A stretch of DNA of 47,440 bases from positions 1 through 47,440 of the forward strand of contig DASVWD010000023.1 in the NCBI GenBank assembly GCA_036389795.1. The letters are read 5' to 3'. Below are positions 8,753-44,477 of the stretch, piece after piece (the stretch's first letter is position 1; each line of letters starts with the position of its first letter). A program made the position numbers and the translations under genes. Origin of the DNA: Longimicrobium sp. (GTDB lineage Bacteria; Gemmatimonadota; Gemmatimonadetes; Longimicrobiales; Longimicrobiaceae). The notes under the pieces are model-generated. The model was not told the DNA's origin. It did no database searches and saw nothing but the letters and a program-made list of their open reading frames with translations.

Positions 8753-10075
8753 TCAGCCGACCGCCGCGGGCTGTCGCGCGGCCAGCGCCTCGACGAACTG
8801 GTCGGCCAGTTCCGCCGCGGCGTCGAGCTCCGGGGCGGGCCGGGAGCCGATCGGCTGCGCAGGCGCCAGCCGGCCGACGCGCCGCTTCGCGGAGTCGAGC
8901 GCCGCCTCGGCCTCGAGCGCGACGCGGCCTTCCCGGTGCTCCGTAGCCAGCCATAGCGCCCGCTCCGCCCACTCGCAGGCACGCTCCCACTCGCCCAGGC
9001 TCATCGCCCCGTAGGTCAGACCGAGGAGCGTGGGCGCGGTCATCTCCTGCGCGACGCCCTGCTCGATCAACACCTGCGCGTCGGCGGCCGCCGTCTCGAA
9101 CGCCCGCGGGTCGCCCGCGCCGCCGGCCGCGCGGGCCACGAGCGCCTGGAGCAGGGCGCGCATGGCCAGGTCTTCCACGTGCGGCACGAGCGAGGTGGCC
9201 ACGCCAAGTGCGCCGGAGAAGTAGCCCTGGAGCGTCCAGTGGTACGCCACGTCGTACGCGAGGCGCAGCACCCCGGGGTGGCCGGCGCCATAGGCCCGGA
9301 ACGCCTTCGCCGCGAAGTGATCCGCTTCGAAGCCGCCGCCCATCGCGGCCGTGACCACGAAGAGGTCGTGGTACGCCATCCCCAGCAGCTCCGGGTGGCC
9401 GTGGCGGCCGGCGGCGCGCAGGGCGCGCACGTGCGAGCGGCGGGCGGCGGGGTAGTTGCCGCGCTGCATGTGCAGGTTGCCCATGCCGGTGAAGCCCTGC
9501 GCGTACGCCCGCCAGTCCTTGGTCTGCCGCCCCTGGATGATGGCGCGGGTGTACCAGCTCTCGGCGCGGTCGAACTCGGAGTGGCGGCGGGCCAGGCGGC
9601 CCACGGCGTAGGCGAGCGCGGCCGAGTCGGGGACCACCAGGGCGGCGGCCTGGGCGAACTCGAGCGCGGTGGCCAGCGCGCCGCGCTGCTCGGCCCAGAG
9701 CGCCACCCGGCGGCAGGCGTTCACCACGCGCAGCACGTCGGCGGTGGCGGGCCGCTCCAGGAGGGAGACGATCACCGAGAGGGGAGCCAGCAGCTCGGGG
9801 TCGGGCCCGGCGCCCGCCAGCTCGTCGCGGCGCACCTGGGCGGCGCCGCCGGAGAAGAGGCCGCCGCGGCGCTCGGCCGGCGTCTCGGCCCACAGGCGCA
9901 CGTTGCGGGCGGAGCGCCAGAGCACCAGCCCCAGCTCGCCGCCGACCTCGTCCAGGATGCCGAGGCCGTCCAGGCGGTCGGGGCCGCGCGTGAGCGCCGG
10001 CGGAACTCGCTGGCGACGGGACTTCCGCTTGCCGGTACGGGGAGGGCGCATCTCGGATATGGGCGGGAGCGGCAT
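8753..10075 (-). CDS. TPR-repeat protein, possibly regulatory
   Basis: 440 residues from the ATG at 10073-10075, with AGAGGAA as ribosome-binding site. A second in-frame ATG lies at 10051. The first about 25 residues are basic (GKRKSRRQR). A conserved-looking globular helical region follows (about 35-170), then TPR-type repeats (GFTGMGNLHMQRGNYPAARR, GLTYGAMSLGEWERACEWAE). There is no signal peptide, so it is cytosolic, and no recognisable helix-turn-helix. TPR regulators in other phyla (RRNPP type) bind exported peptides. The neighbouring 59-residue lipoprotein makes such a pairing possible, but this is only an inference. Confidence 0.85.
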   Translation of the reverse strand: MPLPPISEMRPPRTGKRKSRRQRVPPALTRGPDRLDGLGILDEVGGELGLVLWRSARNVRLWAETPAERRGGLFSGGAAQVRRDELAGAGPDPELLAPLSVIVSLLERPATADVLRVVNACRRVALWAEQRGALATALEFAQAAALVVPDSAALAYAVGRLARRHSEFDRAESWYTRAIIQGRQTKDWRAYAQGFTGMGNLHMQRGNYPAARRSHVRALRAAGRHGHPELLGMAYHDLFVVTAAMGGGFEADHFAAKAFRAYGAGHPGVLRLAYDVAYHWTLQGYFSGALGVATSLVPHVEDLAMRALLQALVARAAGGAGDPRAFETAAADAQVLIEQGVAQEMTAPTLLGLTYGAMSLGEWERACEWAERALWLATEHREGRVALEAEAALDSAKRRVGRLAPAQPIGSRPAPELDAAAELADQFVEALAARQPAAVG

Positions 10076-10697: not shown

Positions 10698-13232
10698 TCA
10701 CGGCAGCGGGTTGCAGGCGGCCTGGGTGGAGGCGCGGTCCGCCGGGCCCGACAGGCTGGACCCGCCCCGTCCGGGGGTGATGGTGTAGCCGCCGCCCGGC
10801 GTGCCCGGCGTGCGGATGGTGACGGTGCCGTTCTGGTCGGTGCGGAACCAGGGCCTGCCGTACTGGTTGAACAGGTCCTTCGTCTGCTGGTGCACGTGGC
10901 CGTAGTCGTTCGCCGCCTCCAGCGAGAAGGTCACCCAGTCGGGCGAGGTGAGCTGCACGAAGCGGCTGCGGACCCCGTTGCAGCTGCCGTGGTGGTTGCC
11001 CTTCAGCACGTTCACGCGCATCCCCGGGAACACGTTGTAGTCGGCGCCGGTGTCGAACCAGTCCTGCGCCTCGTGCTCGGCGTCGCCCGAGAACCACATG
11101 GTGAACGAGGCCGAGTCGGGGCCCACCAGCTTCACCGGCGTGGAGCGGTCGTTGGGCGAGCTCCCGCTCGGGTTCGGCCGCATGACGTGCAGCTTCGCCC
11201 CGCCGTTCAGGGTGATAGTGCAGAGGGCCGAGCCGTTGCCGCAGGGGTCGTCGGTGTCGCGGTAGACGAGCTGGCCGCGGGCCGCGCGGGCGTTGACGGA
11301 GTCGCGCAGCTGCGCCAGCGCGCCGTTGCTGTAGACGTCCTTGTTCTCGAAGAAGTACCGCACGGTGATGCCGCGCGAGGCGCGGAACAGCTCGCGCAGC
11401 CCGGCGTGGTGGTCGAAGTGCTGGTGCGAGAGGATCACCACGTCGATGGTGGCGCCGTTCAGCCCCAGCGAGTCGAGCAGCACGCCCATCCGCAGCGAGT
11501 CGGGCCCGCCGTCGATCATCACCCGGCTGGTGCCGTTGGTGATCAGGTTCGCGTCGCCCTGCCCGATGTCGAGCACGCGCACGACGAGCTCCGAGGCCGT
11601 CCCGCCGCCCCCGCTCGTCACCGTCAGCGCGGCCTCGCCGAAGACGCCGCCCTCCGCCGTGGCCCGGATCGTCGCCGTCCCCGCGGCCACGCCGGTGGCC
11701 AGCCCGCTCGCGCCCACGGTGGCGACCGACGGGTTCGAGCTGCTCCAGGTGAAGGCCGTGGCGACCACGCTGCCGCCCGCGTCGCGCGCGGTGGCGGCGA
11801 ACTGCCGGGTGCCGCCGACGGCGACGCTCTCGGAGACGGGCGAGACGGTGACGCTCGCCACCTCGCCGGTGCCGCCGCCGGAGGGCGGGACGTAGCCGTC
11901 GTTCCGGGCGCCGGGCGTCCCCCTGTCTCCCGCGCCGAAGACGGTGGTCTGCGTGAGCCAGTTGGTCCCCGCCTGGTCCGCGTTGTCGGCGGACGGGTTC
12001 TTCACCCCCTTCGACGCGCCGGTGGGGACCGTCGACCAGGCGACCGAGTCCACCGTGGCGCCCGAGGGGTCGCGCAGCGCCACCCAGTCGGCGCTGTTGG
12101 CCAGGTTGAGCGAGGTGCCGTAGGCGTAGGCCGCGCTCACGCCGCCGTTCTGGGCGCTGCCGCCGTTGCGCGCCAGCACCGCGTAGCCGCCCGCGGGGAC
12201 CACGACCGAGGAGGCGACGACGTGCCCGGCGTCGTTGTTGGAGGCGAGGGTCCAGCCCTGGAGGTCGGCGTCCGCCGTCCCCCAGTTGTGCACCTCGATC
12301 CACTCGCCGACGTCGTCCAGCACCGCGCTGGGGTTCTGCATCACCTCGTTGATCACCAGGCGGGCCACGGGCGGCTCCGCGGCGACGGTGAGCGCCGCCT
12401 CGCCGAAGGCGCCGCTGGCGGCGGTGGCGCGGACCTGCACCGTCCCCGCGGCCACCCCGGTCGCCAGCCCGCCCGCGCTCACGGTGGCGACCGCCGCGCT
12501 GGAGCTGCTCCAGGTAAACGTCGTCGATACGGGATCGCCCCAGGCGTCCACCGCGCTGGCGGTGAACTGCACGGTGCCGCCCACGCCCGTCGCGGCCGCC
12601 GCGGGCGAGACGGTGACGCCGGCGGCAGGGGCGACCGGGGCGACCCAGCCGTTGTTCTGCGCGCCGGGCGTCCCCCGGTCTCCCGAGCCGAAGACGGTGG
12701 TGGACGTCTGCCAGTTGGCGCCGCCCAGGTCGGCGTTGTCGGCCGCGGCGTCGCGCACGCCGCGGGTGGCGCCGGCGGGGACGGACGACCAGGCGACGGA
12801 GTCGACCGTGACGCCGGACGCGTTGCGCAGCGCCAGCCAGTCGGCGGTGTTGGCCAGGTTCATCCCCGTGCCGTACTGGTACTGGGCCGTCACGCCGCCG
12901 TTGGTCTTGCGCGTGCCGTTGCGGGCCAGCACCGCGTAGCCGCCCGCGGCCACGGGGACGCTGGTGGAGATGGTGAGCGGGGCGTCGTTGTTGGAGGCGA
13001 TGGTCCACCCCTGGAGGTTCACCGCGGTGCTTCCCCAGTTGTAGACCTCGAACCACTCGCCGCGGTCGTCGGTGACCGCGGAGGGGTCGGCCATGACCTC
13101 GTTGATGACCAGCTTGGGGGTGGAGAGCGGCTGGAAGACGGCGAGGGGGTGGTCGCCGGGCGCCAGCGGGGCGCGCTCGGCGCACCCGGCCAGCAGCACC
13201 GCGCCCAGCAGGGCCAGTCCGCGGATCCGCAT
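10698..13232 (-). CDS. Modular lipoprotein: lamin-tail and Ig-like domains (two each) plus metallo-beta-lactamase domain
   Basis: 844 residues. The ATG at 13230-13232, with GAGGAGCTGAG before it, starts a lipoprotein signal MRIRGLALLGAVLLAGC. Domain order: lamin-tail domain (about 40-190, LVINEVMADPSAV, GEWFEVYNWG), Big2-like Ig domain (about 195-285, FTWSSSSAAVATV), second lamin-tail (about 290-450, LVINEVMQNPSAV), second Big2 (about 455-545), then a metallo-beta-lactamase fold (about 550-790) with the metal motif SHQHFDHH near 602, MIDGG, and FSGDAEHEA. The MBL part resembles the detached ComEC C-terminal hydrolase. The protein is probably surface-anchored and hydrolytic; substrate unknown. 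The two lamin-tail/Big2 units are an internal duplication, with near-identical phrases such as TVFGSGDRGTPGA and TVFGAGDRGTPGA. Confidence 0.88.
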   Translation of the reverse strand: MRIRGLALLGAVLLAGCAERAPLAPGDHPLAVFQPLSTPKLVINEVMADPSAVTDDRGEWFEVYNWGSTAVNLQGWTIASNNDAPLTISTSVPVAAGGYAVLARNGTRKTNGGVTAQYQYGTGMNLANTADWLALRNASGVTVDSVAWSSVPAGATRGVRDAAADNADLGGANWQTSTTVFGSGDRGTPGAQNNGWVAPVAPAAGVTVSPAAAATGVGGTVQFTASAVDAWGDPVSTTFTWSSSSAAVATVSAGGLATGVAAGTVQVRATAASGAFGEAALTVAAEPPVARLVINEVMQNPSAVLDDVGEWIEVHNWGTADADLQGWTLASNNDAGHVVASSVVVPAGGYAVLARNGGSAQNGGVSAAYAYGTSLNLANSADWVALRDPSGATVDSVAWSTVPTGASKGVKNPSADNADQAGTNWLTQTTVFGAGDRGTPGARNDGYVPPSGGGTGEVASVTVSPVSESVAVGGTRQFAATARDAGGSVVATAFTWSSSNPSVATVGASGLATGVAAGTATIRATAEGGVFGEAALTVTSGGGGTASELVVRVLDIGQGDANLITNGTSRVMIDGGPDSLRMGVLLDSLGLNGATIDVVILSHQHFDHHAGLRELFRASRGITVRYFFENKDVYSNGALAQLRDSVNARAARGQLVYRDTDDPCGNGSALCTITLNGGAKLHVMRPNPSGSSPNDRSTPVKLVGPDSASFTMWFSGDAEHEAQDWFDTGADYNVFPGMRVNVLKGNHHGSCNGVRSRFVQLTSPDWVTFSLEAANDYGHVHQQTKDLFNQYGRPWFRTDQNGTVTIRTPGTPGGGYTITPGRGGSSLSGPADRASTQAACNPLP

Positions 13233-34084: not shown

Positions 34085-36169
34085 ATGCCCAAGCCGTTGC
34101 CGAAGCCGCTCCAGCACGTGGTCTGGGCCGCCGTCGCCGTCCTCGGGGCGGTGGCGCTCGGCCTGATCGCCCTGCACCGCGGCGAGACGATCAACGCCGC
34201 CTGGCTGGTGATCGCCGCCGTGTGCACCTACGCGGTCGCCTACCGCTTCTATGCGAAGTTCCTCGCCCGGCGCGTGCTGGAGCTCGACGACCGCCGCGCC
34301 ACCCCGGCCGAGCGGCTCGACAACCACGTCGACTTCGTGCCGACCCACCGGTACGTGCTCTTCGGCCACCACTTCGCGGCCATCGCCGGGGCCGGCCCGC
34401 TCGTCGGACCGGTCCTCGCCGCGCAGTTCGGCTACCTGCCGGGGACGCTCTGGCTGATCATCGGCGTGGTGCTGGCGGGGGCGGTGCAGGACTTCGTGAT
34501 TCTCTTCGCCTCGATGCGGCGCGACGGCAAGAGCCTGGGGCAGATGGCGCGCGAGGAGATCAACCACGTGGCCGGCTTCACCGCCATGGTGGCCGTGCTC
34601 GCCATCATGGGGATCCTGCTGGCGGTGCTCGCGCTCATCGTGGTGAACGCGCTCCGCCACTCGCCCTGGGGCCTCTTCACCATCGCCTGCACCATCCCGA
34701 TCGCGCTGCTGATGGGCGCGTGGATGCACCGGATCCGGCCCGGGAAGGTGGGCGAGGCGTCGGCGATCGGCGTGGTGCTCGTGCTGATCGCGACGGTGGC
34801 GGGGCGCTGGGTGGCCGAGTCGCCGGCGCTGGCGGGCCTGTTCACGGTGGAGGGGACCACGCTGGTGTGGCTGATGATGGCCTACGGCTTCGTGGCCTCG
34901 GTGCTCCCGGTGTGGGTGCTCCTCTGCCCGCGCGACTACCTGTCGACGTTCCTGAAGATCGGCACCATCGTGCTGCTGGCCGCGGCGATCCTGGTGGCGC
35001 TGCCGGAGATCCGCATGCCGGCGCTCACGCGCTTCGTGGACGGCACCGGGCCGGTGTTCGCGGGCAAGCTCTTCCCCTTCGCCTTCATCACGGTGGCGTG
35101 CGGCGCCATCAGCGGCTTCCACGCGCTGGTGGCCTCGGGGACCACGCCCAAGATGCTCACCCGCGAGAGCGACGCGCGGATGGTGGGCTACGGCGGGATG
35201 CTGATGGAGAGCTTCGTGGGGGTGATGGCGATGGTGGCGGCCGGCATCCTGGACCCCGGCGTCTACTTCGCCATCAACGCGCCGGCCGGGGTGGTGGGCC
35301 CCACGCTCGACCAGGCGGTCCGCACCATCGCCACCTGGGGCTTCGTGGTCTCGCCCGAGCAGATGCAGGCGCTGGCCGCCTCGGTGGGCGAGCAGACGCT
35401 CCTGGCGCGCACGGGCGGGGCGCCGTCGCTGGCGGTGGGGATGTCGCAGATCTTCTCGGGGGTCTTCGGCGGGAGCGCGCTGGCGGCGGTGTGGTACCAC
35501 TTCGCCATCATGTTCGAGGCGCTCTTCATCCTGACCACGATCGACACGGGCACGCGCGTCGGCCGCTTCATGCTGCAGGAGATCCTGGGGCACGTCTGGA
35601 AGCCGCTGGGGCGCACCAGCTGGTACCCGTCGATCGTGGCCTCCAGCGCGCTGATCGTGGCGTTCTGGGGGTACTTCCTCTACCAGGGCGTGGTGGACCC
35701 GCTGGGCGGGATCAACTCGCTCTGGCCGCTCTTCGGCATCTCCAACCAGCTGCTGGCGGCCGTCGCCCTCTGCGTGGGGACGACGGTGATCATCAAGATG
35801 GGGAAGGCGCGCTTCGCCTGGGTGACGCTGCTGCCGCTCGTCTGGCTGGGCGCGGTGACCTTCACGGCCGGGTGGCAGAAGGTGTTCTCGCCCGAGCCCA
35901 GGCTGGGCTTCCTGGCCCACGCGCGGATGATCGAGGAGCGCCTCGCCGCGGGCGCGCTCCCCGCGGGGGCGAAGACGATCGCCGACGCGCAGCGGATGCT
36001 CTTCAACGACCGGCTGGACGCGGGCGTGGCGCTCGTCTTCATGGCGGTGGTGGTGCTGGTGCTGGCCGTCTCGGTCCGCGAGTGGGTGATGATCCTCTCG
36101 CGCCGCAAGCCGGCGGTGATGCGCGAGGCGCCCTTCGTCCCCAGCGCGCTGGGGATCGCGGGGGACTGA
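34085..36169 (+). CDS. cstA: CstA-family carbon starvation protein / peptide transporter
   Basis: 694 residues with about 16-18 hydrophobic segments throughout, full length for the family. Diagnostic stretches: NHVDFVPTHRYVLFGHHFAA IAGAGPLVGPVLAAQFGYLP near the N-terminus, GFHALVASGTTPKMLTRESD, and GINSLWPLFGISNQLLAAVA near the C-terminus. CstA proteins are inner-membrane importers of peptides or pyruvate induced on carbon limitation. No BtsS/BtsR or other regulator lies next to it. It is followed after one base by a small zinc-ribbon membrane protein gene, probably co-transcribed. A terminator at 33925-33958 separates it from the amine oxidase genes. Confidence 0.95.
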   Translation: MPKPLPKPLQHVVWAAVAVLGAVALGLIALHRGETINAAWLVIAAVCTYAVAYRFYAKFLARRVLELDDRRATPAERLDNHVDFVPTHRYVLFGHHFAAIAGAGPLVGPVLAAQFGYLPGTLWLIIGVVLAGAVQDFVILFASMRRDGKSLGQMAREEINHVAGFTAMVAVLAIMGILLAVLALIVVNALRHSPWGLFTIACTIPIALLMGAWMHRIRPGKVGEASAIGVVLVLIATVAGRWVAESPALAGLFTVEGTTLVWLMMAYGFVASVLPVWVLLCPRDYLSTFLKIGTIVLLAAAILVALPEIRMPALTRFVDGTGPVFAGKLFPFAFITVACGAISGFHALVASGTTPKMLTRESDARMVGYGGMLMESFVGVMAMVAAGILDPGVYFAINAPAGVVGPTLDQAVRTIATWGFVVSPEQMQALAASVGEQTLLARTGGAPSLAVGMSQIFSGVFGGSALAAVWYHFAIMFEALFILTTIDTGTRVGRFMLQEILGHVWKPLGRTSWYPSIVASSALIVAFWGYFLYQGVVDPLGGINSLWPLFGISNQLLAAVALCVGTTVIIKMGKARFAWVTLLPLVWLGAVTFTAGWQKVFSPEPRLGFLAHARMIEERLAAGALPAGAKTIADAQRMLFNDRLDAGVALVFMAVVVLVLAVSVREWVMILSRRKPAVMREAPFVPSALGIAGD

Positions 36170-36937: not shown

Positions 36938-38737
36938 ATGGAAGCCCCGGCCCTCCCGCTTTCTCCCGCTTCCCGCGGCCCCGCCCTCCCCCGCGCGTCC
37001 GCGGCCCCGCACTCGCGCGCGGGCGCGCTCGCCTTCCGCGCGAAGGCGGCGCTCTTCCAGCTCCGCCGGGCGGCGGGCGACCTGCGGGCGGGGCCCAGGC
37101 GCCATCCGCGCTCCGCCGCCCTGGAGGACGCGCCCGTGCTGGCCGAGTCGGTGGCCCCGCTCTGGACGGAGGACGACGCGGCGGAGCTGCCGCTGGTGGC
37201 GGGGAAGGTGCACAACCTCCGCCTGGCGCTGCGCCGGCTCGACGGCGTGGAGGTGCCGGCGGGCGCGGTGTTCGGCTTCTGGGCGCAGGTGGGCCGGGCC
37301 ACGCGGCTGCGGGGCTTCGTGGCGGGGCGCGAGCTGCGCGAGGGGTGCCTGGTCCCCTCGGTGGGCGGCGGGCTCTGCCAGCTCTCGGGCGCGCTGTACG
37401 ACGCCGCGCTCCAGGCCGGGTGCGAGATCGTGGAGCGGCACGCGCACAGCCGCGCGGTCCCCGGCTCGTGGGCGGAGCTCGGGCGCGACGCCACCGTCTT
37501 CTGGAACTACGTGGACCTGCGCTTCCGCGCGCCGCACCCCTTCCGCGTGGAGGCGCGCATGGACGCGGGCACGCTCACGGTGCGCCTGCGCGGCCCGCGC
37601 CCCGCCGGGCGGGCGGCCCCGGCCGGGGCGCCCGGGCGGGCGCGCGCGCTGCGGGTGCTGGGCGCGGGGCCGCGCAGCTGCGCCAGTTGCGGCGAGGACG
37701 GGTGCTTCCGCCACCTGGAGGCGCCGCCGGAGCCGGTGGGGCGCGCGGCGCACCTGGTGGACGAGTGGTGGCCGGAGCTCGACGGCTGGCTGGCGGACGT
37801 GCGCCGCCCGGGCGACGTGCTGGGGGTCCCGCTCGACGGGCGGCGGCTGGGGAAGCCGGCGTACGCCTGGACGACGGACGGCGCCGCGCGCGTGCGGCAG
37901 GGCTGGCGGGTGGCGCTCGCGCGCGCATGGCGGTCGCGGCGGCTGGCGGCGCAGGGGGCGGCGCGGCAGCGCGCGCTCCTGGCCGCGGCGGCGGCGCTGG
38001 CGGAGAGCTACGCGCCGCTCCTGCGCCACGACGTGACGCACGTGGTGGCGGCGCAGGGTCTCCTCCCCTTCCTGTGGCGCGCCGGGCACCTGGGCGGGCG
38101 CACCTTCGACGTGCTGATGACGGCGCCGCCGCTGGGCGAGCTGCACGCCCGGCTGGACGCGGCGGCCCGGCTGCACCCCGGGAGCCCCACCCTGGCCGAC
38201 TTCCGCGCCGACGCTGCCCTGGTGCGCGACGAGGCCGAGGCGCTGGCCCACGCGCGGCGGATCGTCACGCCGCACCGCGACGTCGCCGCGCTCTTCCCCG
38301 GCCGGGCCGAGGTGCTGGAGTGGGCGCGCCCGGCCGCCTTCGCGCCCCGGCCGAACCCGGGCCCGCGCCCGCGGATCGTCTTCCCCGGCCCCACGGCGGG
38401 GCGCAAAGGGGCATACGAGCTGCGCTCGGCGCTGGCCGGTGTGGACGCGGAGCTGGTGGCGATGGGGTCGCGGCTGGAGGGGCCCGGCTTCTGGGACGGC
38501 GTGCGCCTGGCCGCGCCGGAGGGGCACTGGCTCGACGGGGCGGACCTGGTGGTGCTCCCCGCGTTCGTGGAGAACCGGCCGCGCCGGCTGCTCGAGGCGC
38601 TCGCGGGCGGCGTCCCCGTGGTCGCCACGCCTGCCTGCGGCCTGGGCCCGGCGGAGGGGCTCACCCTCGTCCCCGCCGGCAACGCCGACGCCCTCCGCGA
38701 CGCGATCGCGGCCGTGCTCGCCGCGCGCGGCGTGTGA
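36938..38737 (+). CDS. VanW-glycosyltransferase fusion protein
   Basis: 599 residues. The VanW domain occupies about 85-215, with NLRLALRRLDGVEVPAGAVF, VGGGLCQLSGALYDAALQAG and GRDATVFWNYVDLRF. A Cys cluster CASCGEDGCFRHL follows near 245-257. Residues about 280-599 look like a GT-B glycosyltransferase-type domain: VTHVVAAQGLLPFLWRAGHL, IVFPGPTAGRKGAYELRSAL, and a donor-binding-like end VVLPAFVENRPRRLLEALAG. VanW domains occur in cell-envelope proteins, some in glycopeptide resistance clusters, with unproven activity. A cytosolic enzyme for an envelope glycan is inferred. The final 324 bases are repeated at 40639-40961 behind an inserted gene. Confidence 0.82.
   Translation: MEAPALPLSPASRGPALPRASAAPHSRAGALAFRAKAALFQLRRAAGDLRAGPRRHPRSAALEDAPVLAESVAPLWTEDDAAELPLVAGKVHNLRLALRRLDGVEVPAGAVFGFWAQVGRATRLRGFVAGRELREGCLVPSVGGGLCQLSGALYDAALQAGCEIVERHAHSRAVPGSWAELGRDATVFWNYVDLRFRAPHPFRVEARMDAGTLTVRLRGPRPAGRAAPAGAPGRARALRVLGAGPRSCASCGEDGCFRHLEAPPEPVGRAAHLVDEWWPELDGWLADVRRPGDVLGVPLDGRRLGKPAYAWTTDGAARVRQGWRVALARAWRSRRLAAQGAARQRALLAAAAALAESYAPLLRHDVTHVVAAQGLLPFLWRAGHLGGRTFDVLMTAPPLGELHARLDAAARLHPGSPTLADFRADAALVRDEAEALAHARRIVTPHRDVAALFPGRAEVLEWARPAAFAPRPNPGPRPRIVFPGPTAGRKGAYELRSALAGVDAELVAMGSRLEGPGFWDGVRLAAPEGHWLDGADLVVLPAFVENRPRRLLEALAGGVPVVATPACGLGPAEGLTLVPAGNADALRDAIAAVLAARGV
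38414..38737 (+). repeat. Direct duplication, left copy (3' end of the VanW-GT gene)
   Basis: From TACGAGCTGCGCTCGG (38414) to the stop this copy matches 40639-40961 base for base for about the first 115 bases, then with scattered differences that increase in the last 60 bases. The repeat interval is 2225 bases. The copy here is in frame. Confidence 0.92.
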
Positions 38738-38754
38738 GGCTAGGGTGTATTCGG

Positions 38755-38783
38755 AAGAAAGATCTGCGAGTTTCTATCGCAGA
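38755..38783 (-). terminator. Terminator of the phosphofructokinase gene
   Basis: On the minus strand the stem TCTGCGA/TCGCAGA (38763-38783, 7-base loop) is followed by TCTTTCTTCC. It lies 28 bases past the kinase stop and only 26 bases from the end of the VanW-GT gene. Confidence 0.65.
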
Positions 38784-38810
38784 CCAGCATTTTCAACTCC
38801 CACGCTGTCC

Positions 38811-40274
38811 TCACCGCTTGGCTTGGCGCCTGTTTTTCCCATCGTCTTCTACGTCAAGAGGCCTGGTACGCTCGGCAGGTGAGAGCGGCTGTCCTGTGCT
38901 GCTCACCACCTGCTTCCAGAACATCCCTGGGATTGGGATTTTCTTCTTTCCCTCTCCCACCAGGCTCAGCGGGACGAGGACGAACTCGGCCAGCCACTGC
39001 GAGATCATGAAGTCGGTGTAGCCGCCCAAGGCGTTGTCGACGGCCAGCGCACCCAGCCGCTCGCAATAGATCTGGTCGTGTGCATTGGCTGGCACGGCCC
39101 GGATGTGGTGGCGCGGCTGGTTCGTGAACACCTCGATCTCCTTGTCCCGCGCGTCGTGCACGCGCTTCTTCAGCTCATCCCTGAGGTAATCGCAGAAGTC
39201 CGCCTTCTTCACCTCCCTGTCCTTGAGCTTGGCCTTCTTGCCTTCGAGCACGGCTCCCGCCCCTTCCGCCATGACCACCACCGCATGAGGCGTGTGGTCC
39301 CTCTCCTGCACCCTTTCTTCTACGTGGCGGATCACGTCGTCCAGGTACTGCCTCGCTTGGTCGACGCTGAGGGCGTCGAACACCTCGGGAATCAGCACTA
39401 GGTCGACGTGCCCGCTCGCTAGCGCCGCGTTCGCCGCCACGAATCCGGCCTCGGCGCCGAACAACTCAATCACGCAGATCCGCCGGGTCGACTCGGCCTC
39501 GCTACGCAGGATGTTGATGACGCGGGTTGCCCGTTCTACCGCTGTGTTGAAGCCGAACGACTGCCAAACCCACAGCAGGTCGTTATCCATCGTCTTGGGG
39601 ATGCCGACGATGCTGCGGGTGGGGTTTGCCAGCGCGAGTTCGTGGGCGACCTTCAGCGAGCCGTCACCGCCTATGACGTACAGGATGTTGATCTTGTGCC
39701 GGGTGAGATTCCCGGTGATGTCGCGTACCAGCAGTTCGAGTTCGTTGTCGTCCTTCTGTCCCCCTCGGACGTTACCCAGCTTCGAACCTCCGTCGTAAAG
39801 CCATTCCTCGGTCATCTTGGGTGTGAGCGGGACCTTGTTGTCGGTCAGGTTGCGGAGCCCTTCGAAGCTGTTGTAGACGCCGAGTACCTTTCCTTTGTTG
39901 TCGTAGAGGTCGTGGCGCTTGACGATGCTGTGCACTACCCGGTGCAGCCCCGGCGCCAGCCCTCCGGTGGTCACGATGGCCACGTTCACCTTGTGGGGGT
40001 CGTGGTGCAGGTCCTCACGTGGGCCAGCCTCCAAGAAAGAAGGCACCTCAAGCCCGGCCGCCTGGAATTGCTTCAGTAGCCAGTTGTCCGCGATTACCGC
40101 CTTCCTATGTTCATGCGTGCGAAATAGTCCCAAAATGTCCTGGCCTAGGTGGTTCTTGTGCGGTTGAGGATCCAATTGCTTGACCGCTGTGTCAAAATTG
40201 CGACCCTCGGCTACATGTTGCAGCAGGATCTCACGTTCGCTGGTCATCCGTCTAAGGTCGGGAATTCTGGCCAT
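38811..40274 (-). CDS. 6-phosphofructokinase family protein, inserted gene
   Basis: 487 residues from the ATG at 40272-40274 (GGAG 8 bases before). A family-X/plant-like PFK layout with an N-terminal extension of about 95 residues: TTGGLAPGLHRVV (102-114), GGDGS (202-206, Gly as in ATP-using enzymes rather than the Asp common in PPi-using ones), PKTMDND (226-232, catalytic Asp), FGFNTAVERA, VMAEGAG. It should phosphorylate fructose-6-phosphate in glycolysis; the phosphate donor is uncertain. The reading frame is visibly poorer in GC at third positions than every neighbour (AAG, GAT, TTG, AAT are frequent). It lies between two copies of the neighbouring gene's 3' end. Both facts point to recent acquisition. 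Confidence 0.9.
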   Translation of the reverse strand: MARIPDLRRMTSEREILLQHVAEGRNFDTAVKQLDPQPHKNHLGQDILGLFRTHEHRKAVIADNWLLKQFQAAGLEVPSFLEAGPREDLHHDPHKVNVAIVTTGGLAPGLHRVVHSIVKRHDLYDNKGKVLGVYNSFEGLRNLTDNKVPLTPKMTEEWLYDGGSKLGNVRGGQKDDNELELLVRDITGNLTRHKINILYVIGGDGSLKVAHELALANPTRSIVGIPKTMDNDLLWVWQSFGFNTAVERATRVINILRSEAESTRRICVIELFGAEAGFVAANAALASGHVDLVLIPEVFDALSVDQARQYLDDVIRHVEERVQERDHTPHAVVVMAEGAGAVLEGKKAKLKDREVKKADFCDYLRDELKKRVHDARDKEIEVFTNQPRHHIRAVPANAHDQIYCERLGALAVDNALGGYTDFMISQWLAEFVLVPLSLVGEGKKKIPIPGMFWKQVVSSTGQPLSPAERTRPLDVEDDGKNRRQAKR

Positions 40275-40638
40275 GGCAGTTCTCCACTTATGTAGTGCGA
40301 AGGGGCGGTCCGTGCCGCCTCCAACTCGTCATTTCTCCGGTAATTTGCCGCCGGGAGCGGGGAAACGTCAGGAATCATTGTTGCGCCGACGACAGCTGAA
40401 AATTGATCTGAAGGCCGTCGTCGCCGCCAGTATACGTGGCGCTCTCTCCGCCAGCAATGACGATGTGTGCCCGACGATGCGACCTGCTCGCGTGCTCCAG
40501 CAGAGATGCTGTTGGGCCTTTCTACAACGGCGGCGCTCCCACGGCGAACGGTTGGGCGTACCGCGCCCAAGTGTTTTTGCGTCTGCCTAAACGGGGCATA
40601 TCTTCTCCCTTCCATCGCTCACCCGCACCCCGCTGACG
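40275..40638. other. Right part of the inserted segment, no gene
   Basis: Upstream region of the phosphofructokinase gene, less GC-rich than the rest of the window. TACATA (minus strand, near 40290) could be a -10 box but no matching -35 was found. The 123-codon minus frame at 40244-40615 overlaps the kinase start and resembles nothing. No integrase, transposase or tRNA was seen. Confidence 0.55.
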
Positions 40639-40961
40639 TACGAGCTGCGCTCGGCGCTGGCCGGTGTGGACGCGGAGCTGGTGGCGATGGGGTCGCGGCT
40701 GGAGGGGCCCGGCTTCTGGGACGGCGTGCGCCTGGCCGCGCCGGAGGGGCACTGGCTCGACGGGGCGACCTGGTGGTGCTCCCCGCGTTCGTGGAGAACC
40801 GGCCGCGCCAGCTGCTCGAGGCGCTCGCGGGCGGCGTCCCCGTGGTCGCCACGCCTGCCTGCGGCCTGGGCCCGGCGGAGGGGCTCACCCTCGTTCCCGC
40901 CGGCGACGCCGCCGCCCTCCGCGAGGCGGTCGAGGGCGTGCTGGCCGCGCGCGCCGGATGA
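40639..40961 (+). pseudogene. Displaced, frameshifted copy of the VanW-GT 3' end
   Basis: Duplicate of 38414-38737. One G is missing where the first copy reads GGGGCGGACCTGG, so the two halves lie in different frames (TYELRSAL... then ENRPRQLLEALAGGVPVVAT). There is no start or promoter. The last 60 bases differ at a dozen or so positions from the left copy. The sequence after it may be the original downstream flank. Confidence 0.88.
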
Positions 40962-41075: not shown

Positions 41076-41807
41076 TCAGGCCGGCCGTCGCGCCTCGATC
41101 GGCTTCGCGGTCATCATTCCGCGCAGATTCTGTTTCAGACGGACTCGCCACATCCAGAAAAGCAGCACCACGAGCGGGCTGACGGCCAGGACGACGAGCA
41201 GCGGGACGATGCGGATCGGCTCGGGAATGAACTTCATCTGGCCAAGGAGGAACGAGCCGGACGCGATGAACAGCCCGAAGGACATCCGCCAGAGATGGCG
41301 CGCCAGCCGTCGCGTTCCCTGAATGCCGCCGGCCCGGATCATCCTGAGATCGCCGATGGCGGCGAGCAGGATGACCGTGGCCATGAAGAACATCATCCCG
41401 GCAGGCACACCATCGATCTGGTTTCCCGGCCTGCCGAGCGCGGTGAATGCGCGAGTGTATTCCCCCGCGGCGAGTGTGAATGCCAGCACCATGAGGGCCA
41501 TGCCCACCCGCCGGCCTGCTCCAGGCAGCGGCTTGACGGCGGTGTAGGCGGTGAACACGAGGTAGACGATGAGCACTCCGCCACCGATGGACTTGCCCTC
41601 GTATGCGGAGATGATCGCTACCGCAATCGCAGTGGCGATCATCGCGTACACGAAGACCAGGCCGCTGCGGCGATGCCACGTCCCTCCTTTGCGAACCGCG
41701 ATGGCCATGAATCCCGCCGCGAGGGCCACCAGCCCCGTCGCGAGGTGAAACGCGAGGACCAGAAAGAGCAGCCCGGTCGACGTCGCGAGTGTCACACGCT
41801 CGCTCAC
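41076..41807 (-). CDS. Multi-pass membrane protein (DUF2306-like)
   Basis: 243 residues from GTG 41805-41807, with GGAGGAG directly upstream. A second GTG at 41793-41795 is also possible. About seven hydrophobic segments: LATSTGLLFLVLAFHLATGL, then HRRSGLVFVYAMIATAIAVA, GGVLIVYLVFTAYTAVKPLP, VGMALMVLAFTLAAGEY, AGMMFFMATVILLAAIGDL, LWRMSFGLFIASGSFLLGQM, IVPLLVVLAVSPLVVLLFWM. The His-Arg-Arg-Ser-Gly motif after the second helix and the His near LARHLWRMS recall DUF2306/cytochrome-like membrane proteins. Function unknown. A perfect palindrome lies 40 bases upstream. Base use is less extreme than in the surrounding genes. Confidence 0.78.
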   Translation of the reverse strand: MSERVTLATSTGLLFLVLAFHLATGLVALAAGFMAIAVRKGGTWHRRSGLVFVYAMIATAIAVAIISAYEGKSIGGGVLIVYLVFTAYTAVKPLPGAGRRVGMALMVLAFTLAAGEYTRAFTALGRPGNQIDGVPAGMMFFMATVILLAAIGDLRMIRAGGIQGTRRLARHLWRMSFGLFIASGSFLLGQMKFIPEPIRIVPLLVVLAVSPLVVLLFWMWRVRLKQNLRGMMTAKPIEARRPA

Positions 41808-41846
41808 AGCTCCTCCTCCGCGAAGGCTCGTGTTCAGAACCGGCCA

Positions 41847-42065: not shown

Positions 42066-42127
42066 CACGGAGTCAACGGAGTCAACCGGGACAGCGGGAT
42101 CCGGTGTTCCCCGTCGACTCCGTGTGA
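42066..42127. repeat. Hyphenated palindrome, repeat family A variant
   Basis: The left arm is CACGGAGTCAACGGAGTCAA. The right arm is CCCCGTCGACTCCGTGTG. Same GGAGTC word as at 4098 and 10641. Located in the 627-base gap 41808-42434, which has no gene. Confidence 0.75.
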
Positions 42128-42154
42128 TCCCGTTTCTTGAGATCAACTGCGCAT

Positions 42155-42434: not shown

Positions 42435-44186
42435 TCACCGCCCCTGCCGGATCAGCTCGAGCACGGTGTCCAGCACCGGGTCGCGGTTGGCGCGGTAGTC
42501 GTCGGCGGTGAGCGCCACGGGGACGTCCGGGGCGATCCAGCGCCGCGCGTCGCGCGGGGAGGTGAGGCTCCACTCCACCGTGGAGAGGTAGAGGGGAAGG
42601 CCGCTGTAGGGGAGCACCAGGACCGCCGGGTCGCCGTGCTGGCGGGGCTGGGCGCCGGTGGGCTCGCCCACGAACACCGCGTTGGTCAGGCGGTCCAGCT
42701 CCACCACGAAGTTCATGGCCGCCGAGCCGGTGTTCCTCCCCACCAGCACGAAGAGCCGCGCTCCCTCGCGCGCGTCGTGGGCGATCAGGGTGCGCAGCAG
42801 CTCGGGATAAAGGTAGGTGTTGCCGCCGGTGTTGCGCCGCACGTCCACCACCACGCCGCGCGTGCCGGGGTGCTCGGCCAGCCACCGCCGCAGCCGCAGC
42901 CCGAACTCGGCGAGGTTCTCCCTCCCCTCCTGCGGGAAGGTGCGGCTGAAGTTCACGTACACGGCCGAGTCCGCCGCCAGCGGCTCGAACCAGTACCACT
43001 CGCCCGGGCGGCTCATGGACAGCGGCGGCGGAGTGGGGGCGCCCGGCGGGGGAAGGAGGGTGCGCGCGACGGGGGCCTCCGACGACGCCACCTCCACCTC
43101 GCGCGCCCGGCCGGCGGCGTCCTCCACCCCGAGCCGCACGCGGCCGGGCTCGCGCGCGATCCCCAGCGCGTGCAGCACGTGCGGCGTGCGCAGCACCTCC
43201 GGGGCGTTCAGGCGAAAGGACTCGCCCTCGTCGGACTGCACCAGGGGCTCGATCGCGCGCAGCACCCGCTCCACCGGGACGCCGTCCACCGCCACCACGC
43301 GCGCGCCCACCAGCGCCCGGTGCGCGCTGTCGGCGTTCACCACCAGCACGCCCTCGGGGAAGAGGTGGAAGACCAGGGGCAGGCCGCCCGTGCGCCCCAG
43401 CCGCGCGGGGAGGTCGCCCCGGAAGCCGACGCCGGTGTGGCCGCGGCCCAGCAGGGAGACGAGCTTCTGCAGCTCCACCGCCACCTGCGCGTCGGTGAGC
43501 GCGCCGACGCGCTCCTTCACCCGCGCGGCGGCGCGCAGGATCGAGTCCGGGAGCGGCCGGCCGCCGGCGTACTCGGGGCGGAAGCGGCGGATGGAGGCCA
43601 GGAGGTAGTCCACGTCCGCCCTCCACCCGCTCTCGCGCGGGGCGGTGGAGTCGGCGGGGGGCGGCATGAGCGCCTGGAAGCGCGGGTGCCCCCGGAGCGC
43701 GTGGAAGGCGCTGTCCTGCAGCAGCTCGCCCACCCACTCCAGGCGGTGGACCAGCACCGCGCGCTCCAGCCAGGCGAGCGCGCTGTCGGGCTGGCCCGAG
43801 CGCGCGTACGACTCGGCGGCGAGCGCGGCGTTGGTGGTGGGATACGGCGACACCCCCAGCGCGTCCGCCCGGGCGAAGGCGGGGGCGGCGCCGCGGAAGT
43901 CGCCCGCGCGGTAGCGGGCCGTGCCAAGGCGCCGCCAGGTCTCGCCGTCCCAGGGATACGCCGCGGTGAGCCGCGCGTACGCCTCGGCCGCCAGCTCCCA
44001 CTCCTCGCGCTCCAGGCGCTCCCCCGCCTCGCGCGCGAGCGCCGCGTACTGCAGCGGCGTGATCCCGCGCGGCCCCGGCACCAGCGCCGTTCCCAGCGAC
44101 TGGGCGCCGAGCGCGCCCCCCGCGGGCCCGGTAGATAGGAGGACGGCGAGCGTGGAGAGCACGAGCAGGGGGAGGCGGCGTCGCAT
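42435..44186 (-). CDS. Exported TPR and S41-type peptidase-like protein
   Basis: 583 residues from the ATG at 44184-44186. Signal peptide at about 1-28 (MRRRLPLLVLSTLAVLLSTG). TPR-like helices at about 43-150 (WELAAEAYARLTAAYPWDGE, ESYARSGQPDSALAWLERAV). A PDZ-like stretch is at about 280-320 (VVNADSAHRALVGARVVAVDG). The S41 peptidase fold runs from about 400: VVVDVRRNTGGN (446-456), then the nucleophile Ser488 in GRNTGSAAMNFV and VFVGEPTGAQ. The typical C-terminal-processing Lys is not obvious. Probably periplasmic or secreted; substrate unknown. It resembles other S41 family proteins with N-terminal TPRs. No operon partner. Confidence 0.85.
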   Translation of the reverse strand: MRRRLPLLVLSTLAVLLSTGPAGGALGAQSLGTALVPGPRGITPLQYAALAREAGERLEREEWELAAEAYARLTAAYPWDGETWRRLGTARYRAGDFRGAAPAFARADALGVSPYPTTNAALAAESYARSGQPDSALAWLERAVLVHRLEWVGELLQDSAFHALRGHPRFQALMPPPADSTAPRESGWRADVDYLLASIRRFRPEYAGGRPLPDSILRAAARVKERVGALTDAQVAVELQKLVSLLGRGHTGVGFRGDLPARLGRTGGLPLVFHLFPEGVLVVNADSAHRALVGARVVAVDGVPVERVLRAIEPLVQSDEGESFRLNAPEVLRTPHVLHALGIAREPGRVRLGVEDAAGRAREVEVASSEAPVARTLLPPPGAPTPPPLSMSRPGEWYWFEPLAADSAVYVNFSRTFPQEGRENLAEFGLRLRRWLAEHPGTRGVVVDVRRNTGGNTYLYPELLRTLIAHDAREGARLFVLVGRNTGSAAMNFVVELDRLTNAVFVGEPTGAQPRQHGDPAVLVLPYSGLPLYLSTVEWSLTSPRDARRWIAPDVPVALTADDYRANRDPVLDTVLELIRQGR

Positions 44187-44477
44187 CGGGGTTCGTCCGG
44201 TCGCGGGGGAAACAGGTGTCTCGGCACCGCGATGTGACGTGGGACGGAGCGCCAGGGTTGGTCGCGTCCGGTCGCACTTTGGGATCGGCGGCGCCCGCCC
44301 TCCTCCACGTCGGCACCGTGGCGGCGCCGGGAGCCGGCGGCGGAAGGACGCCCCGGCTGCTCTTTCGACCTGCCCTGCAGTGAGCGCGAGGGACTGAACC
44401 GGGCATCGCGCGGGTTCGACCCGGAGGACGCCGCTCGCGGGCAACTCCCTCCCGAACCTTCCCGCGGAGATTTTTAT
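44187..44477. other. Gap upstream of the S41 gene
   Basis: 291 bases between the S41 gene start and the duplicated fragment. I find no gene, no repeat arm and no convincing promoter. Confidence 0.5.

Follow-up and report, generated by a model that had tools for sequence, protein, structure and literature searches.

How did a foreign gene come to lie between two copies of the 3' end of a resident gene, at a locus where no recombinase was identified? The question is raised by the window, the whole analysed stretch of 47,440 nucleotides of contig DASVWD010000023.1 from Longimicrobium sp. The resident gene codes for a protein with VanW and glycosyltransferase domains (VanW-GT), and its last 324 bases recur in direct orientation on the other side of 1901 nt of DNA. 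An earlier note, made from the sequence alone, had described this repeat, and its observation is confirmed: both copies are found exactly at the positions listed in Table 1, the left one completes the 599-aa reading frame and the right one is a frameshifted orphan without the upstream part of the gene. The copies are 96% identical. Their first 129 nt match exactly, followed by a 1-nt deletion in the right copy and one substitution, and the remaining 11 differences all lie within the final 67 nt. Homology between the two does not extend past the stop codon in either copy. Elsewhere in the 7.5 Mb genome, nothing matches the repeat better than 43 nt at 86%. What brackets the inserted DNA is a partial duplication of the resident gene.

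The bracketed 1.9 kb had been described as containing one gene of less GC-rich codon use, and this holds. In 1.9-kb windows across the sampled genome GC is 71.9% ± 4.1%, and only 2.1% of these windows fall as low as the insert (60.3%). The sole gene recognised within it, coding for an ATP-dependent 6-phosphofructokinase (PFK), has a GC3 of 0.79, while VanW-GT and CstA have 0.98-0.99. With PFK the only recognised gene, the reported absence of an integrase also stands. No further copies of the insert were found in the genome, and no tRNA or Rfam family was found in the window. The PFK protein has the PF00365 domain together with the nucleotide-site motif GGDGS. Its best PDB match is 2hig, an ATP-dependent 6-phosphofructokinase (5.6e-41), and the closest NCBIfam model, NF005301, scores 318 bits, under the model cut-off of 400. 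Since both GGDGS and PKTMDND are retained, the enzyme is probably functional. The best match among 99 relatives reaches 36%, and the best matches across the phylum (395 genomes) reach 38-41% and belong to other families. Judged by composition and similarity, PFK is an import that is alien to the genus and nearly so to the phylum, as the earlier note had proposed in seeing it as acquired from outside. A plasmid or phage origin is not indicated: near-full-length relatives in plasmid records are at about 33% or less, and a pattern scan of sampled IMG/VR contigs and GTDB contigs found no relative.

Table 1. Features of the VanW-GT/PFK locus and of further repeated gene ends in the same genome. Positions without a prefix are those of the window, except in the last row, which refers to the contig of carB; a prefix names another contig.
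Feature	Position	Strand	Description and evidence
CstA gene	34085..36169	+	Syntenic anchor left of VanW-GT in G002 and G008; Pfam CstA 1.3e-253
VanW-GT gene	36938..38737	+	599 aa, complete; Pfam VanW 3.8e-34, Glyco_trans_1_4 2.8e-9
Left repeat copy	38414..38737	+	324 nt, in frame, stop codon at end; VanW-GT 3' end
Approximate recombination breakpoint	38670		2 differences/257 nt before, 11/67 after
Bracketed insert	38738..40638		1901 nt, GC 60.3%, single copy in genome
PFK gene	38811..40274	-	ATP-dependent 6-phosphofructokinase, 487 aa, intact; GGDGS and PKTMDND motifs; Pfam PFK (PF00365) 2.2e-55
Right repeat copy	40639..40961	+	323 nt, orphan VanW-GT 3' end, 1-nt deletion, 5' part absent
DUF2306-like membrane protein gene (weak)	41076..41810	-	Right of orphan; Pfam DUF2306 E 0.0012, below cut-off
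groEL (intact target gene)	C53:43228-44862
bshA (intact target gene)	C53:108731-110134
Prolyl oligopeptidase (intact target gene)	C115:45285-47549	-
Thioredoxin reductase (intact target gene)	C140:26199-28052	-	Cyclic-nucleotide-binding-like N-terminus
Sulfite-oxidase-like gene (intact target gene)	C14:11359-12069
Further intact target gene	C4:43692-46637
carB 5'-end copies	53077-53330, 56108-56458, 59451-59711, 63920-64133		Loci L238, L239

The differences between the VanW-GT copies are not spread evenly. Along the repeat they number 2/257 and then 11/67 (permutation p=0.0002), and the breakpoint falls inside the homologous stretch. Between the VanW-GT orthologues of two congeners, G002 and G008, the same two stretches differ at 48/257 and 23/61 positions, a contrast that is about twofold, not twentyfold. 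As far as about 38670 the copies represent a single allele; beyond it they are two, at ~40% of the distance between species of the genus. Recombination between a resident gene and a related incoming one leaves a mosaic of this kind. The greater divergence of the last ~60 nt had been taken as a sign that the incoming end came from a related strain, and the counts indeed indicate an allele of VanW-GT that is related but not the same.

Orphan gene ends of this type number at least seven in the genome, the right copy included. A search for direct repeats at the ends of genes covered 1.54 Mb (one fifth of the genome), on contigs that are not a random draw and with a simple ORF rule for calling genes. 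In this sample, six intact genes other than VanW-GT have their 3' end repeated 0.8-3.5 kb downstream (Table 1; the names of these six targets are our reading of the translations). The copies cover 69-226 nt within the coding part and are 89-97% identical. In all seven cases the orphan lies downstream and in the same orientation as the target gene. In 6/7 scars homology stops no more than about 3 nt from the stop codon, and in the sulfite-oxidase-like scar it runs about 20 nt past it. Divergent sequence marks the start of several orphans, and frameshifts and stops are present in orphans. The copies of bshA diverge in the same order as those of VanW-GT (2/84, then 12/39, the divergent part with synonymous changes). 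In groEL, the oligopeptidase and the thioredoxin reductase the divergent part is instead at the inner side, significantly so only in the thioredoxin reductase. The cargos are unrelated and include a short putative lanthipeptide precursor, a methyltransferase, a TPR protein, an RCC1-repeat lipoprotein and a PEP-utiliser-domain protein.

Several other observations were made during this search. The putative precursor in the groEL insert (L225 5239-5520) has a leader that by eye resembles that of class I lanthipeptide precursors (MKKLSLSLDELRVDSF...), with no Pfam match. Internal gene segments are likewise duplicated in this genome. At carB (C115:49981-53214, minus strand) a mirror image was found, with the 5' end repeated several times upstream over about 11 kb at a spacing of 2.8-4.3 kb; these repeats are possibly serial insertions. 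A pair on C74 (L256 4496-4781 and 8665-8953) was rejected as a gene end. The two are copies, 96.5% identical, of a dispersed 289-nt element that has short inverted ends (ATACCG...CGGTAT) and looks like a MITE. Candidate repeats in G022, G009 and L119 also turned out to be dispersed intergenic repeats.

As a control, 1.93 Mb were searched, made up of G009, G022 and 80 GTDB loci. One comparable case was found, in an alphaproteobacterial MAG (L145), where 142 nt at 9771-9912 recur about 3 kb downstream at 12962-13103. This repeat consists of the last 63 nt of another VanW-GT gene and the 79 nt that follow. Seven cases in 1.54 Mb versus one in 1.93 Mb give a p of about 0.02 by our binomial estimate, or 0.03 when VanW-GT is left out. 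The excess of gene-end scars over the control is suggestive, not proof.

A complete gene, an insert and an orphaned 3' end are also what a site-specific integrative element leaves when it targets gene ends, an example being prophage e14 in E. coli icd. At VanW-GT, as with e14, a new 3' end is supplied and the original end is orphaned. The earlier note had considered the repeat too long for this kind of target restoration; that objection is countered by e14 itself, which leaves a 163-bp duplication of the icd 3' end (PMC6379469). The locus might in this case be the remnant of such an element after loss of its integrase part, and the sharp end of homology at the stop codon in 6/7 cases agrees with this. 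However, e14 is a 15-kb prophage with site-specific integration, none of which was identified at VanW-GT, and the VanW-GT insert contains no recombinase. Across the genome there are seven different targets with inserts of 0.8-3.5 kb and unrelated cargo. No recombinase is found among the annotated cargo genes of the scars, and the seven junctions share neither a conserved crossover core nor any motif beyond what shuffled ends give. The uneven divergence along the repeat in VanW-GT and bshA also argues against an e14-like remnant, which we consider improbable.

Orthologues of VanW-GT (79-80%) occur in only 2/99 relatives, G002 and G008, and the gene is uninterrupted in both, with different genes coming after it in each. 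The order in G002 is CstA, VanW-GT, a 2-kb block and an SSF symporter; in G008 the same 2-kb block precedes VanW-GT. VanW-GT and the block are thus interchanged between CstA and the symporter in these two congeners (loci L069, L070). Neither PFK nor the right flank of the window was found beside VanW-GT in G002 or G008. An uninterrupted VanW-GT joined to the sequence after 40961, which had been suggested as a check, was looked for in relatives and not found; no empty site for the insertion was found in congeners, and no donor sequence for VanW-GT/PFK was found. The VanW-GT locus alone does not show which side is native. When the sites that differ between the copies are compared with G002 and G008, they split about evenly between right and left as native. 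The right flank from 40962 to about 42430 is also of sub-average GC (64-68%), and the peptidase gene at 42435-44444 has relatives at 30-39%. A dispersed repeat of ~62 nt (window 42066-42128) matches both strands at well over ten other places in the genome.

The shift of VanW-GT relative to the neighbouring block between G002 and G008 would also suit an old tandem duplication of VanW-GT around PFK, after which decay would have left only the 3' end of the second gene, partly homogenised by gene conversion. Orphan ends at varied stages of decay fit such a history, and the repeat itself would need no special route of entry. Against it, there is no homology outside the coding sequence beside either copy, and PFK must still have been imported separately. 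In addition, all seven orphans are short (69-324 nt), while decay should leave longer and more varied remnants. An origin by tandem duplication is therefore unlikely.

The uniform shortness of the orphans could also be produced in assembly, if two strain haplotypes of a locus were joined in series, and the draft does consist of 285 contigs with an estimated contamination of 3.75%. But no N is present at the joins in the sequence read, and an overlap join would need exact overlap, while several orphans begin in divergent sequence. The frameshifts and stops in the orphans and the similar anatomy in the alphaproteobacterial MAG also make an artefact very unlikely.

The earlier note had also named an unknown gene-cassette mechanism as an option. 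The structure does recur in the genome, but no shared cargo or junction motif lends this option support. A dedicated, undescribed mechanism of this kind would place single cargo genes behind stop codons and copy the target 3' end. Seven cases in one fifth of the genome versus one in the control agree with it, as do the sharp end of homology at the stop codon in most cases and the downstream orphan in the same orientation throughout. No motif, cargo, size or enzyme common to the cases was found, however. An end of homology at the stop codon is also expected between species whose intergenic DNA cannot be aligned, and the carB repeats are located at a 5' end. A dedicated cassette mechanism is accordingly highly improbable. 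That the genome uses or meets a gene-end-directed process which drops single cargo genes behind stop codons genome-wide, copying the target 3' end each time, is quite doubtful too; it would correspond to about 30 scars if the sample is representative.

The bshA locus shows where DNA was added. In six congeners (G003, G004, G005, G006, G008, G009) no more than a few hundred bases separate bshA from a QRPTase gene behind it, and in G008 the two reading frames touch. The order here is bshA, an ICMT-like gene, the orphan bshA end, a DUF4145 gene, an SH3-like gene and QRPTase. As the genes are adjacent in relatives and separated here, DNA was added between them, and it lies both to the left and to the right of the orphan. 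An indel and synonymous changes separate the two bshA ends; both are thus likely to derive from working genes of different lineages. The DUF4145 gene (L228, about 11109-11900), which lies between the orphan and the native QRPTase side, is in DNA of 45-53% GC.

With slightly better than even confidence, we read the VanW-GT/PFK locus as the scar of a homology-anchored insertion that needed no integrase. The locus itself presents a mosaic duplication, an intact left gene, a decayed right copy and a foreign PFK, and at least six similar scars accompany it in the genome. From these we infer where the DNA came from, which event followed which and what enzymes acted. The incoming DNA would be a fragment from a related organism, bearing that organism's VanW-GT end and, behind it, the PFK gene. 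It would have recombined with the resident VanW-GT near 38670, so that the resident 5' part was retained and the last codons and stop of the donor were adopted. The other end of the fragment would have been joined without long homology inside the resident gene, at the start of the right copy (40639), and the resident 3' end would thereby have been orphaned. RecA-type recombination plus end joining could supply the enzymes.

Two routes to the second junction can be envisaged: an illegitimate re-entry into the resident gene upstream of the switch point, or a single crossover of the circularised fragment with gene conversion afterwards. A switch to the donor allele, followed by the donor stop and cargo and by illegitimate re-entry, would leave an identical inner part and a divergent end, as in VanW-GT and bshA. 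The circular route needs the later conversion because the identical part is otherwise unexplained. This also counts against the simplest form of homology-anchored insertion: a plain single crossover predicts donor/recipient differences on both sides, and the first 257 nt show none such, so one of the two, illegitimate re-entry or later conversion, has to be invoked as well. Two further points oppose a homology-anchored route: neither a donor nor an empty site was found for VanW-GT, and in groEL, the oligopeptidase and the thioredoxin reductase the divergence is on the inner side. In its favour, the six other brackets in the 1.54 Mb have different target genes and different cargos, the seven junctions have no motif in common, PFK is foreign, and DNA was added at bshA. 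The preference for gene ends would be one of survival: nowhere else does an insertion leave the target gene whole, and a fragment internal to the gene would disrupt it.

Parts of this route are known from other systems. In homology-facilitated illegitimate recombination (S. pneumoniae, A. baylyi, P. stutzeri), as proposed here, one junction is homologous and one illegitimate, and foreign inserts are of ~1 kb; in its classical form a comparable length of the recipient is deleted, whereas recipient sequence is duplicated at VanW-GT. In the minimal mobile elements of Neisseria, single cargo genes are swapped between conserved genes via homologous recombination in them. The scars share with these elements the single cargo genes and the homologous recombination in conserved genes, but the Neisseria elements replace cargo between two conserved flanks and do not duplicate a gene end. 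The closest parallel to the circular route is experimental. Linear DNA homologous to the lacZ 3' end circularises in E. coli and enters the chromosomal copy by single crossover (Amarir-Bouhram et al. 2011; PMC3240628). Partial duplications of the lacZ end were found in 56/60 aberrant clones and measured 109-950 bp in the 14 that were sequenced, and the events were RecA-dependent and involved no integrase (PMC3240628). As at VanW-GT, foreign DNA ends up in the 3' region of a gene whose end is partly duplicated. The lacZ system is a laboratory construct with identical homology, whereas the VanW-GT locus would represent a natural event with a divergent incoming allele. The earlier suggestion that circular DNA was integrated by homologous recombination thus has a direct laboratory precedent (PMC3240628), and that interpretation as a whole is supported in part.

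The laboratory outcome is already known (PMC3240628), and what is new is that it apparently occurs repeatedly in nature, at the ends of genes. What deserves to be followed is that the scars recur within a single genome. Gene gain is usually ascribed to phages, transposons, integrons, or allelic replacement between conserved flanks. Many short orphan ends behind intact genes would record a third route, in which capture is anchored by homology and involves no integrase; such a record would allow the rate, the donors and the cargo of capture to be measured directly from sequence.
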